From: Desulfocapsa sp.
GTDB lineage: Bacteria > Desulfobacterota > Desulfobulbia > Desulfobulbales > Desulfocapsaceae
Length of the DNA: 39,622 bases
Direction of reading: 5' to 3'
NCBI GenBank assembly: GCA_030145625.1
Contig: JAQYVF010000043.1
Span: 1-39,622, forward strand
Made by a program: the position numbers and the translations under genes. Below are positions 9,504 through 11,803 of this stretch, in pieces; positions within the stretch are counted from its first letter, which is position 1; each line of letters opens with the position of its first letter. Below the pieces are notes generated by a model. That model was given only the letters and a program-made list of their open reading frames with translations, was not told the origin of the DNA and made no database searches.

Positions 9504-9945
9504 GATATCTCCAGAAATTTCTCTTTACATGAGCTGTAATACCAGTCAGCTGCCCACTTCTTATAAGAGAGAACCGCCATCTTGCGCTTTCAATTAAAGG
9601 CCACCTCGAAAAATTGCCTTTTTGCCCAAGCTCTTCGTCACAGCCAAAAAATAATGCTCACATATCAACTATATGCTGCGCTTATTTTTTCGTCTGCACC
9701 TCGATCTTGAACAAAAAATCTAATTTTTCAAGGTACCCTAAAGCCAGAAGTTTACTTTTAGTTCTGCCCAATTCCCGCGTTTCGTTTGAATGTTCTTTAA
9801 GAAAATGAGTAGCAAACACAAAGCATCTGGCGAGGAAGCAAACTCCTGTTCAAAGAATATTTGACTTCACCGTATCACTTTTCACTACCCTTCTGGTTGC
9901 AGGCTCCCCCCATGCAGCATAAAAATTGCTTTGTTAAAATCAAGA

Positions 9946-9967
9946 CACCATGTTCGAAAACATGGTG
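9946..9967. terminator. 9-bp hairpin, possible minor terminator
   Basis: CACCATGTT-CGAA-AACATGGTG forms a stem with a tetraloop. Read on the minus strand it is followed by a T-rich stretch and lies downstream of the small membrane protein operon, beyond that operon's main terminator. Confidence 0.4.
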
Positions 9968-10010
9968 ACAAAATATATGCGGTAAGTCATTTGATTCCGC
10001 AGCACGACAT

Positions 10011-10059
10011 AAAAAAACCTCCTGATCACCGAATGTGGTATTCGACAATCAAGAGGTTT
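10011..10059 (-). terminator. Rho-independent terminator of the small membrane protein operon
   Basis: On the minus strand AAACCTCTTGAT pairs with ATCAGGAGGTTT (one G-U pair), an inner CGAAT/ATTCG stem extends it, and a run of T follows. It begins about 35 nt after the stop of the last gene of the operon. Confidence 0.85.
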
Positions 10060-10093
10060 GAACAGATGAGAAAGCTTTACGATTTTAATTTAA

Positions 10094-10393
10094 TTATTTT
10101 ACTGCAGTGGCCCTTCTCGGTGCCTTGTTTACATATTTAAAGAAAACTGGGAAGGCCACGAAAAAGGCAACACAGATCAGATATTCGATGCCTTTGATAT
10201 GTGTGTAATAGTCAACCAGAGTATGCAGAGGTTTGACCATTCCGATTGCAACCATATATTGGCTTGCCAGTTCACTAACAGACCAGTTGACCTGATAAAG
10301 GGCACCGGTAAGTGCAGCTGCAACCCAGAGACACATAAGTGAGCCTGCTGCCAAGATAACTCTACCTGTTGTTTTTGATGTGTTTTCTGCCAT
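10094..10393 (-). CDS. Small two-to-three-segment membrane protein, third gene of sigma54 operon
   Basis: The 99-residue protein has a first hydrophobic segment at about 11-33, a possible second around 44-55 and a last at about 69-88, with a basic C-terminal tail. I do not recognise a named family. Its first half resembles the two smaller upstream proteins: LW followed by A-x-x-x-A-L, then a segment ending S-Q-Y-x-V-A-I, against Q-S-Y-F-V-A-I in the second protein. This suggests descent from the same ancestor with an added C-terminal membrane segment. AAGGGGA lies just before the ATG, so it should be well translated. It is followed by a strong terminator. A role as a small subunit of a membrane redox or transport complex is possible but not shown. 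Confidence 0.75.
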   Translation of the reverse strand: MAENTSKTTGRVILAAGSLMCLWVAAALTGALYQVNWSVSELASQYMVAIGMVKPLHTLVDYYTHIKGIEYLICVAFFVAFPVFFKYVNKAPRRATAVK

Positions 10394-10432
10394 GATGTTC
10401 CCCTTAATCTTTTTTATATTCTATAGAATTTA

Positions 10433-10627
10433 TCAGCCGATTATTGCAACAAAGTAACTTTGCAGCACATTTAAAAATCCAGCACTGACCAAAGCGCTTG
10501 CAAGACAAGTCATACCCCAAAGACCAACTAAGGCAGCCACAGTACCCCCTACTCCAAGTGCAAATTTAGATGTTTCGTCAGCTACATCGACCTGATTTTC
10601 AGTTACATTTTGTAATGTTGTAATCAT
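10433..10627 (-). CDS. 64-residue single-pass membrane protein, second gene of sigma54 operon
   Basis: A short acidic, hydrophilic N-terminus (about 20 residues) leads into a Gly/Ala-rich membrane segment at about 23-48 and a weaker hydrophobic end (about 50-64). It is clearly paralogous to the gene upstream: both share the pattern V-D-V-x-x-E-T-x-K-F-A-L-G-V-G, then G-x-W-x-x-x-C-x-A-S, and end near A-I-x-G. The single Cys inside the membrane segment is conserved between the two. A textbook AAGGAGG precedes the ATG. No function is known to me. Absence of any catalytic motif and the tiny size suggest a structural or regulatory small subunit. Confidence 0.78.
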   Translation of the reverse strand: MITTLQNVTENQVDVADETSKFALGVGGTVAALVGLWGMTCLASALVSAGFLNVLQSYFVAIIG

Positions 10628-10681
10628 GATGTCCTCCTTACCTGCCTTTTCTCTTCCGAAAAAGGCATTGCGTTTCCCATA

Positions 10682-10879
10682 TCAACTTCCGGTAATGGCA
10701 CCGATGAGGCCCCTGACAACTCCGCCTAGTCCGGTATCAAGCATGACACTTGCCATACAGACAACGGCCCAGATTCCTACCATTGTTGCAGCAGCAATTC
10801 CAACACCGAGAGCAAACTTAGTTGTTTCATATCCCACATCGACCTTAGTTTTGGTTACAGTTTGTGTATTTGCAGTCAT
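10682..10879 (-). CDS. 65-residue single-pass membrane protein, first gene of sigma54 operon
   Basis: Architecture as in the neighbouring 64-residue paralog: a hydrophilic Thr/Lys-rich N-terminus with K-V-D-V-G-Y-E-T-T-K, then a membrane segment at about 22-46, then a Gly-rich amphipathic tail. The identity pattern with the second gene proves tandem duplication. GGAGGG sits 4-9 nt before the ATG. The gene is first behind a -24/-12 promoter at 10936-10952, giving a leader of about 45 nt. Strong ribosome sites on all three genes imply abundant products under the inducing condition. I cannot name the family; a homolog search in Desulfobulbales and Desulfuromonadales would be the first step. Confidence 0.78.
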   Translation of the reverse strand: MTANTQTVTKTKVDVGYETTKFALGVGIAAATMVGIWAVVCMASVMLDTGLGGVVRGLIGAITGS

Positions 10880-10935
10880 GGTGCCCTCCGTATCTTTTTG
10901 ATTTTACTATTCTTTCCCACTCTTTGCTCTTAATG

Positions 10936-10952
10936 TTGCACAAATGGTGCCA
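10936..10952 (-). promoter_or_regulatory. Sigma54 (RpoN) -24/-12 promoter
   Basis: Read on the minus strand: TGGCACCATTTGTGCA. It matches the RpoN consensus with GG and GC exactly 10 bp apart and a full TGGCAC -24 box. It lies 57-73 nt upstream of the ATG of the first small membrane protein, so transcription should start near 10926. A promoter of this class requires an AAA+ enhancer-binding activator; none is encoded in this window. Confidence 0.8.
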
Positions 10953-10993
10953 GTTCTAGCCTCCCCCCAAATAAAATCATTTTTTCAACTATC

Positions 10994-11021
10994 CTTCTGA
11001 TATAACACTCTATATCAGAAG
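10994..11021. promoter_or_regulatory. Perfect 11-bp dyad upstream of sigma54 promoter
   Basis: CTTCTGATATA and its exact complement are separated by 6 nt. It is centred about 80 bp upstream of the predicted start site, the usual range for enhancer-binding-protein sites. No T-run follows on either strand, so it is not a terminator. The binding protein is unknown. Confidence 0.55.
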
Positions 11022-11041
11022 CAATTGCCCACTTCAGGACC

Positions 11042-11070
11042 GCCACACTTGTGCGGCACAGAAGTGTGGC
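11042..11070. promoter_or_regulatory. Second dyad upstream of sigma54 promoter
   Basis: GCCACACTT-N11-AAGTGTGGC, a perfect 9-bp inverted repeat, with a further internal palindrome TGTGC-G-GCACA. It is centred about 130 bp upstream of the predicted start. It could be another activator site or the operator of a different regulator. Confidence 0.55.
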
Positions 11071-11587
11071 AACGACCAGGTATGTGGTATTGGAATGAAA
11101 AAGTGTAGTTATCCTCCATCACATGCGTTGCAGTTATTGCGGATAGGTGTAGCAACAACACATTTATGGAAAACGGGTTGGAGAAAAATTGTTGCAGGGC
11201 CCATTCTTTTCGCTATGTGAGTCAAAATTCAACACAGAATGTGTTAAAGCAACTGAGGATTAAAGATGTATTGCCTATCCAGAAGGAAGGGGGATAACAT
11301 TTGCCTGAAAGGCTAAATTGACAGGAAGGGTTCCATCTGCTCTGATTGAGACTAACGATACAAACGAGAGTACCAGAAAAATATTCGGTTCAAAATCTGA
11401 CCAGGCAGGAAAAAAATCACCACAGATAGCATTCCTCCACTGGACAAGTGGATAAGGCGACACTACTATTGCGAATAATAACTGTTTCAACTTGATAAGA
11501 AGCAGCATATCGACACCACACTACAAGGAAGTCGATTCCACTTTTGTGCAGTTTCTTTATTTTTATTTGTCTAGGAGGACAACACTT

Positions 11588-11803
11588 ATGATCGTAACAG
11601 ACTGGATCCACACCATCGCCGGTTTTTTCATCCTGCTCAGCATGGCTCTTGGGGTAGACTGTGGCAACAACCCCTTTTTTGTTCATAAATACTGGCTTTT
11701 TTTCACTGCCTTCGTGGGTCTCAATCTTTTCCAGTTTGGCTTTACCAAAATCTGTCCACTAGAGATGATCTTAAAAGTTCTGGGCGTACCAGAGAACAGA
11801 TAA
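11588..11803 (+). CDS. DUF2892 (YgaP-type transmembrane domain) protein
   Basis: The 71-residue protein starts at the internal ATG at 11588, chosen because AGGAGG lies 8 nt upstream; longer in-frame versions lack a ribosome site. Two hydrophobic helices (about 8-22 and 34-51) are followed by FTKICPLEMILKVLGV, the C-P motif and terminal amphipathic segment typical of DUF2892. This domain forms the membrane part of YgaP, where it is fused to a rhodanese; here it stands alone. A second Cys lies at about 25. In E. coli ygaP is controlled by YgaV, and a YgaV-like repressor is encoded 5.6 kb away here, so a shared sulfur theme is possible but unproven. A bidirectional terminator follows immediately. 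Confidence 0.75.
   Translation: MIVTDWIHTIAGFFILLSMALGVDCGNNPFFVHKYWLFFTAFVGLNLFQFGFTKICPLEMILKVLGVPENR

Follow-up and report, generated by a model that had tools for sequence, protein, structure and literature searches.

Our comparative analysis suggests that a three-gene operon in a 39,622-nucleotide stretch of Desulfocapsa sp. DNA (contig JAQYVF010000043.1, hereafter the window) is a satellite operon of a sigma54-controlled respiratory module, acting in trans with an FtsH/Hmc-like module encoded elsewhere in the genome (contig C126), a reading to which we assign a probability of about 0.6. Gene-neighbourhood comparisons showed that genes of the small membrane protein family represented by the first two genes of the operon (SP family) often adjoin a dedicated FtsH gene and sigma54 regulators. 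They also showed that the pair formed by an SP gene and sp3, the third gene of the operon, has its own sigma54 promoter and that its usual neighbours, encoded on the same strand, are FtsH, a five-heme cytochrome, an HmcB-like iron-sulfur protein, and an HmcC-like quinone protein. Contig C126 of this genome was shown to carry such a cluster, with the same enhancer layout as the window. The first-pass annotation had proposed that the operon may work either alone or with a distant complex; the FtsH/Hmc-like cluster on C126, with its shared enhancer layout, points toward the distant complex and away from independent action.

The operon is read from the minus strand in the order sigma54 promoter, sp1, sp2, sp3, and terminator (Table 1), and the three small membrane-protein genes, ribosome sites, and strong terminator described at first pass were all recovered. 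The ribosome sites, read from the sequence, are purine-rich and lie 4-5 nt before the ATG. Alignment of sp1 and sp2 gave 44% identity, confirming the proposed paralogy, and the resemblance claimed for part of sp3 was located by hhalign in its N-terminal half, which matched the SP profile over 51 columns (probability 86%, P = 5e-6). A low-confidence AlphaFold model of sp1 (pLDDT 69; helices 5-49 and 51-63) depicts a polar N-tail followed by one long hydrophobic helix and a short C-terminal helix, and the equally low-confidence model of sp3 (pLDDT 65.5) contains helices at residues 7-34, 39-49, and 59-88. Both models agree with the view, reached from sequence comparison, that sp3 is an SP domain joined to an HmcD-type helix. 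Searches of Pfam, NCBIfam, PHROGs, and PADLOC with sp1, sp2, and sp3 returned nothing significant or over cut-off, an Rfam scan of the operon region gave no significant match, neither sp3 nor the SP profile had a significant sequence match in the PDB, and Foldseek found no fold match in the PDB for the low-confidence sp3 model. A gene for a YgaP-like membrane protein of 71 aa (Pfam PF11127, 28.4 bits) is divergent from the operon at 11588-11803 of the window (plus strand) and is kept in the syntenic genome.

Table 1. Features of the window operon and of the related clusters in the same genome (positions refer to the window; cluster genes are given in order).
Feature	Position	Strand	Remarks
Sigma54 -24/-12 promoter TGGCACCATTTGTGCA	10937..10952 (10952-10937)	minus	57 nt from sp1 ATG; kept in relatives
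Proximal dyad CTTCTGATATA-N6-TATATCAGAAG	10994..11021		11-bp perfect arms
Distal enhancer-like dyad GCCACACTT-N11-AAGTGTGGC	11042..11070		putative NtrC-type activator site
Row of CNACAC-like half-sites	11082..11152	minus	read from sequence
sp1 ribosome site GGAGGG	10884..10889	minus	read from sequence
sp1	10682..10879 (10879-10682)	minus	65-aa SP-family membrane protein
sp2 ribosome site AAGGAGG	10633..10639	minus	read from sequence
sp2	10433..10627 (10627-10433)	minus	64-aa SP-family paralogue of sp1
sp3 ribosome site AAGGGGA	10399..10405	minus	read from sequence
sp3	10094..10393 (10393-10094)	minus	99 aa; SP-like N-terminal half and HmcD-like C-terminal TM helix (~residues 57-88)
Intrinsic terminator	10059-10015	minus	stem-loop with 20 pairs, T tail
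C126 cluster			sigma54 regulator, IS1595-like gene, FtsH, five-heme cytochrome, HmcB-like FeS, HmcC-like NrfD, SEN, sigma54 promoter, SP, sp3; second sigma54 regulator further on
C200 cluster			histidine kinase, sigma54 regulator, promoter, SP, SP, FtsH, kinase-like SEN, NapC/NirT-domain multiheme cytochrome
C196 cluster			sigma54 regulator (cut by contig end), four SP, FtsH, SEN, cytochrome, NrfD-like, FeS

Genome G099 (L275, also L152) retains the gene neighbourhood of the window operon, with one extra SP gene in the operon itself. The retained neighbours are CBS/nucleotidyltransferase-, acetyl-CoA synthetase-, OmpA-, YgaP-, PEP-synthase-, carbonic-anhydrase-, gap-, and glycogen-synthase-like genes, labels assigned by eye except for YgaP (Pfam). 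Identity to the syntenic homologue in G099 is 88% for sp3 (dN/dS 0.06), and identity to the best syntenic match is 72% for sp1 (dN/dS 0.24) and 55% for sp2 (dN/dS 0.43), the weakest of the three. With synteny preserved and dN/dS spanning 0.06-0.43 between the two genomes, the three ORFs are, on comparative grounds, genes under selection, strongest for sp3; the syntenic homologues speak against unconserved ORFs, a prospect raised at first pass. In addition to this neighbourhood, the profile search and synteny comparison proposed there gave matches to the SP profile, which represents the sp1/sp2 type, in 167 of the 257 class genomes (at most 19 per genome) and to sp3 in 123 of them. The best 76 named of 156 confirmed sp3 stretches include ones from Desulfocapsa, Desulfobulbus, Desulfogranum, Desulforhopalus, and Desulfofustis, and from many broadly named metagenome-assembled genomes. 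A phylum-wide sample yielded SP in 20 of 395 genomes, 11 of them outside the class and three of these weak; the matches in G284, G381, and G431 (E 2e-5 to 7e-4) were taken as chance, with no FtsH nearby. Among the eight genomes outside the class with matches below E 1e-8, SP lies directly before FtsH in five (G354, G496, G572, G607, and G625).

Upstream of sp1, the -24/-12 element combines TGGCAC, a GG-N10-GC frame, and TGCA. The promoter reported at first pass is present, but not perfect: it is near-consensus, with GTGCA where the sigma54 consensus has TTGCA. The pattern TGGCAC-N6-TGCA occurs at 18 places in the 4.98-Mb genome versus 2 for the reversed pattern, the window element has the GG-N10-GC spacing with TGGCAC and TGC as well as the conserved upstream enhancer element by which sigma54 promoters were judged, and a promoter scan of the operon strand (9900-11600) detected no sigma70-like site. 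Both dyads described at first pass were found as well. Alignment of eight main and satellite operons of the genus, a hand-chosen set consisting mostly of operons with a recognised dyad, revealed conserved blocks at the -24/-12 element, at an ATATCA-like core, at the dyad, and at CNACAC-like half-sites that recur in a row about every two helical turns. In the window, the half-sites are CTACAC (11152-11147), CAACGC (11130-11125), CTACAC (11108-11103), and CCACAT (11087-11082), spaced by 22, 22, and 21 bp, the last lying 18 bp before the half-site of the dyad. Their core (C-AC) is invariant across the eight operons for the last three half-sites; the first is only partly covered by the aligned rows. 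The two dyads are not equivalent: the distal one, conserved and placed after the phased half-site row, is presumed to be the site of an NtrC-type activator, whereas of the proximal one just an ATATCA-like core, without the dyad, recurs in relatives, and this core could possibly be an IHF-type bend site. Half-sites, dyad, core, and -24/-12 element together would be arranged as for an NtrC-type activator that binds several sites, with a bend between them. The proximal dyad was rejected as a regulon marker: its half pattern with at most two mismatches was rarer than the reversed control (37 versus 62), and it was not kept in the aligned relatives.

The same control extends across the SP family. 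A sigma54 site scoring at least 20 precedes 98 of 121 distinct SP operons, against 1.24 expected from shuffles, and its commonest distance to the start codon is about 57 nt; in the other 23, the site is under threshold or absent. The pattern GCNACAC-N14..16-GTGTNGC was found with at most one mismatch in 24 of the 121 (0.15 expected), with at most two in 52 (4.7 expected), and with at most three in 88 (34 expected). These operons were drawn from the longer loci, with upstream stretches dropped when shorter than 300 bp (including 60 bp inside the gene) or identical in the last 200 bp; they are related sequences whose counts are non-independent, and some start codons are over-called. The comparative evidence from promoter, enhancer element, and genes supports the sigma54-switched module of small membrane subunits envisaged at first pass. 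Within this genome, the dyad pattern with at most one mismatch occurs in the window, upstream of the C126 operon, and on C120, and with at most three mismatches at six places versus two for the reversed pattern. The enhancer dyad is thus common to the window and C126, and it recurs at other satellites. The C200 and C196 clusters are without it and carry related half-sites instead (two and three mismatches), and the promoter of the first C196 SP gene scores below threshold. A pattern built from the half-sites of these other clusters was discarded as a marker (2 places versus 3 for the control). The near copy of the dyad on C120 (40795-40823; L015 9296-9324) stands before a 712-aa gene of another kind, with no sigma54 site visible by eye in the stretch read. 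The regulator at L011 6333-4831 combines a sigma54-interaction domain with a Fis-type HTH, and its receiver match is slightly above the cut-off (33.5 versus 30.2 bits).

SP genes occur at four places in this genome, namely the window, C126 (SP and sp3), C200 (two SP), and C196 (four SP). Three of the five FtsH genes of the genome are found in the clusters of C126, C200, and C196, one in each. Many gene labels in these clusters, including the kinase, the regulators, and the NrfD-like proteins of C196 and C200, were given by eye or by likeness to a few proteins scanned with Pfam and NCBIfam. The SP-sp3 pair of C126 comes after the cluster, in the same orientation but under a promoter of its own, and its sp3 is 85% identical to that of the window. 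The FtsH scores 754 bits, and the HmcB- and HmcC-like proteins are, from their scores, clearly related to HmcB and HmcC but under curated thresholds (410 bits versus 420, and 356 bits versus 550, the next model for the latter, hydrogenase cytochrome b subunit, giving 168 bits). The 184-aa cytochrome has five CxxCH motifs rather than the 16 hemes of HmcA, whose C-terminus it resembles (36 bits, cut-off 400). A sequence search with the HmcC-like protein returned no solved relative, and the ORF lists of the cluster, the sole source consulted on this point, contained no unassigned large gene between the listed ones and no noticed HmcE or HmcF. Because the cytochrome has five hemes instead of 16, the HmcB and HmcC scores are under their cut-offs, and sp3 is below that of HmcD, we describe the module as Hmc-like and do not equate it with a true Hmc complex. 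Beyond this genome, FtsH was found in 24 and a sigma54-regulator homologue in 23 of 30 SP loci (the best-scoring short loci, some cut by contig ends). Upstream flank of 8.4 kb or more was available for 40 of the 76 sp3 loci fetched, a set not thinned by genome; 31 of these 40 contain HmcB- and HmcC-like genes, 28 of the 31 also FtsH, and the HmcC-like gene lies on the sp3 strand in all 31. The remaining nine contain none of the three genes, and for one of them (L215) the overlapping L124 has the cluster just outside. Desulfogranum marinum DSM 2058 and Desulforhopalus sp. IMCC35007 are among the strains in which the cluster is present.

The last third of sp3 connects it with HmcD. Residues 57-84 match the NCBIfam HmcD model (NF045712) with 20.8 bits (E 2.7e-4), and a genome search gave 21.3 bits, both under the curated cut-off of 34 bits. 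All four sp3 proteins tested matched this model (E 5e-5 to 0.02), the three further ones with E values of 5e-5, 1.3e-4, and 0.02. In the reverse direction, the sp3 profile matched one HmcD ORF in each of 15 of 30 HmcD loci (E < 0.01), with a best E of 4e-10 in this small set, and found no match in the other 15; the alignments viewed fall within profile columns 56-96. The likeness to HmcD of the Hmc complex (HmcABCDEF of Desulfovibrio and relatives) lies in this last third and in the HmcB- and HmcC-like neighbours, whereas sp3 differs in its extra SP domain, its score below cut-off, and its occurrence in satellite operons.

The window operon is a copy without a complex beside it, the HmcC-like cluster of this genome being on C126. 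Across 20 genomes of the genus, a close HmcC-like gene (E < 1e-200) is present in 13, one copy each, and sp3 also in 13, with one to six matches each, although some matches counted in draft genomes are fragments at contig ends. Both occur together in 12 genomes, neither in six, and one alone in two (Fisher p=0.0012, ignoring relatedness), the latter being the incomplete genomes G107 (sp3 without the HmcC-like gene) and G109 (the reverse). In G113, whose assembly comprises two contigs, there are six sp3 genes for a single close HmcC-like gene, and none of the six lies within the 20 kb surrounding the HmcC-like cluster. These counts, from G113 and from the genus, indicate at the level of gene content that the SP-sp3 pair multiplies and disperses and the complex stays single.

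Under the reading of the window as a satellite of the C126 module, one NtrC-type activator would switch both operons. sp3 would take the place of HmcD next to the HmcC-like subunit, sp1 and sp2 would pair with its SP part in the membrane, and the dedicated FtsH may use this SP part as its contact in controlling how the complex is assembled or turned over. The satellite would then supply extra or alternative SP subunits in trans while the regulator is active. Counting against this reading are the sub-threshold HmcD, HmcB, and HmcC scores, the surplus of sp3 over HmcC-like genes in G113, the nine flanked sp3 loci with none of the three neighbouring genes, the exceptions G107 and G109, the 23 SP operons short of the sigma54 threshold, and the low confidence of the structure models. 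The SP proteins themselves could act either as subunits, in which case satellites would give isoforms, or as a handle for or antagonist of FtsH, in which case the protease would recognise the SP domain and free SP proteins would compete. Since SP is linked to FtsH in clusters without an HmcC-like gene, a role connected with FtsH is favoured. The HmcD part of sp3 points to membership of the complex, which is compatible with such a role.

The alternative that survives best, and that we regard as quite possible though short of an even chance, is that sp1, sp2, and sp3 are plain HmcD-like structural subunits of the Hmc-like complex, with satellites serving as isoforms for different conditions and FtsH as generic quality control from the same cluster. 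The HmcD-like C-terminal helix of sp3, its strict co-orientation with the HmcC-like gene, its far stronger conservation compared with sp1 and sp2, and the presence of an HmcC-like gene in 29 of 30 HmcD loci from other lineages are all consistent with this. However, SP without sp3 adjoins FtsH in other cluster types, with a NapC/NirT-domain cytochrome on C200 and, by eye, a cytochrome and an NrfD-like protein on C196, which suggests that SP follows FtsH and not the HmcC-like gene. The ratio of up to six sp3 genes to one HmcC-like gene, as in G113, where copies far outnumber complexes, is also odd for a plain stoichiometric subunit.

It is also conceivable, if somewhat unlikely, that SP proteins titrate the dedicated FtsH as its substrates or inhibitors, in the manner of lambda CIII and SpoVM, with sp3 marking the complex for or against degradation. 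Lambda CIII and SpoVM are small membrane-associated modulators of other FtsH proteins. The parallel is of a small protein tied functionally to FtsH, a tie that gene adjacency may indicate for SP. This adjacency persists outside the class, several tandem SP copies precede ftsH, the proteins have polar N-tails of about 20-35 residues before the hydrophobic stretch (by eye), and FtsH itself keeps HE.GH in all 59 full-length ORFs (counting duplicates), with an exact match to the Walker motif GPPGTGKT in 46. In contrast, no sequence relation to lambda CIII or SpoVM was found, similarity to the latter being no greater than chance (Pfam SpoV E=0.67), and the FtsH associated with SP is a dedicated paralogue inside a respiratory gene cluster.

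We consider it improbable that SP proteins report on the complex by acting on SEN, the histidine-kinase-like membrane protein of the clusters: SEN genes occur in many of the same clusters, and the H-box His is replaced by Asn in all seven distinct SEN (301-309 aa, C196 and C200 types; a 663-aa weak match in L126 with no readable motif was left out), the one Pfam-scanned SEN showing no ATPase domain, but several clusters with both SP and sp3 yielded no SEN homologue (e.g., L117, L118, L186, L197, L204, and L209). A holin, toxin, or phage remnant, as small, hydrophobic proteins in dispersed copies might suggest, deserves hardly any credence, given the sigma54 control, the conserved respiratory neighbours that already contradict it, purifying selection, synteny, a best PHROGs match of E 0.033 to a family of unknown function, and no PADLOC match up to E 1.

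Returning to the satellite reading, its parts are known, and the arrangement of a protease, small membrane proteins, and an Hmc-like complex with satellites is new. The openly licensed literature yielded no description of an FtsH/SP/Hmc-like module or of satellite operons, and in the literature on these bacteria FtsH was not found described together with Hmc/NrfD, sigma54, or small membrane proteins. A parallel is the Ohc complex of Desulfovibrio, a cytochrome/FeS/membrane complex for which control by sigma54 and the enhancer-binding regulator DVU3142 is predicted (PMC4641369); the main text of that paper does not mention FtsH, and no satellite operons were noticed in its account. Compared with Hmc and its 16-heme HmcA, the C126 cluster has an FtsH gene and a five-heme cytochrome. 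Within the NrfD family, the C126 NrfD-like protein scores best against HmcC, recalling the QrcD/HybB/HmcC group as treated in PMC6303296, from which C126 differs in its periplasmic cytochrome and accessory genes. That one sigma54 module unites an Hmc-like complex with a protease and the putative small membrane partners of this protease, and has satellite operons elsewhere, suggests that regulated proteolysis or subunit exchange may control anaerobic respiration and offers definite genes on which this could be tested. An extension that we judge unlikely as a whole is a dispersed regulon in which one NtrC-type activator turns on many SP operons, SP proteins (one of them welded onto an HmcD-type subunit) serve as handles or shields for the dedicated FtsH, and the cell remodels its respiratory complex by swapping protease-recognised small subunits encoded chromosome-wide.

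Several further features of the clusters were observed. SEN-type membrane proteins of 301-309 aa (L009 12493-13422, L010 7451-6546, and relatives) are encoded just after ftsH. On C200, FtsH and SEN are followed by the gene for the 487-aa NapC/NirT-domain multiheme cytochrome (L009 13419-14882), which resembles ImcH and may indicate a different type of electron-transfer module that is similarly controlled. On C126, a gene for a 304-aa IS1595-like protein (L011 16244-17158, minus strand) occupies the same place in many relatives, and two relatives tested carried Pfam zinc-ribbon and transposase domains. Among 33 distinct C126-type FtsH loci (those with less than 1.3 kb upstream and identical proteins left out), it lies directly upstream of ftsH in 23, with a 4-base overlap in nine, and it is absent from the five loci with sp3 upstream of ftsH. 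Inspection by eye revealed few invariant residues, and the usual first catalytic Asp was not evident; the gene looks like a domesticated transposase, and no description of it beside ftsH was found in the literature. Downstream of the C126 SP-sp3 operon, a gene that appears peroxiredoxin-like by eye (L011 8676-7957, minus strand) has an in-frame TGA at codon 84 (FTFV-U-ATE) and likely encodes a selenocysteine protein.
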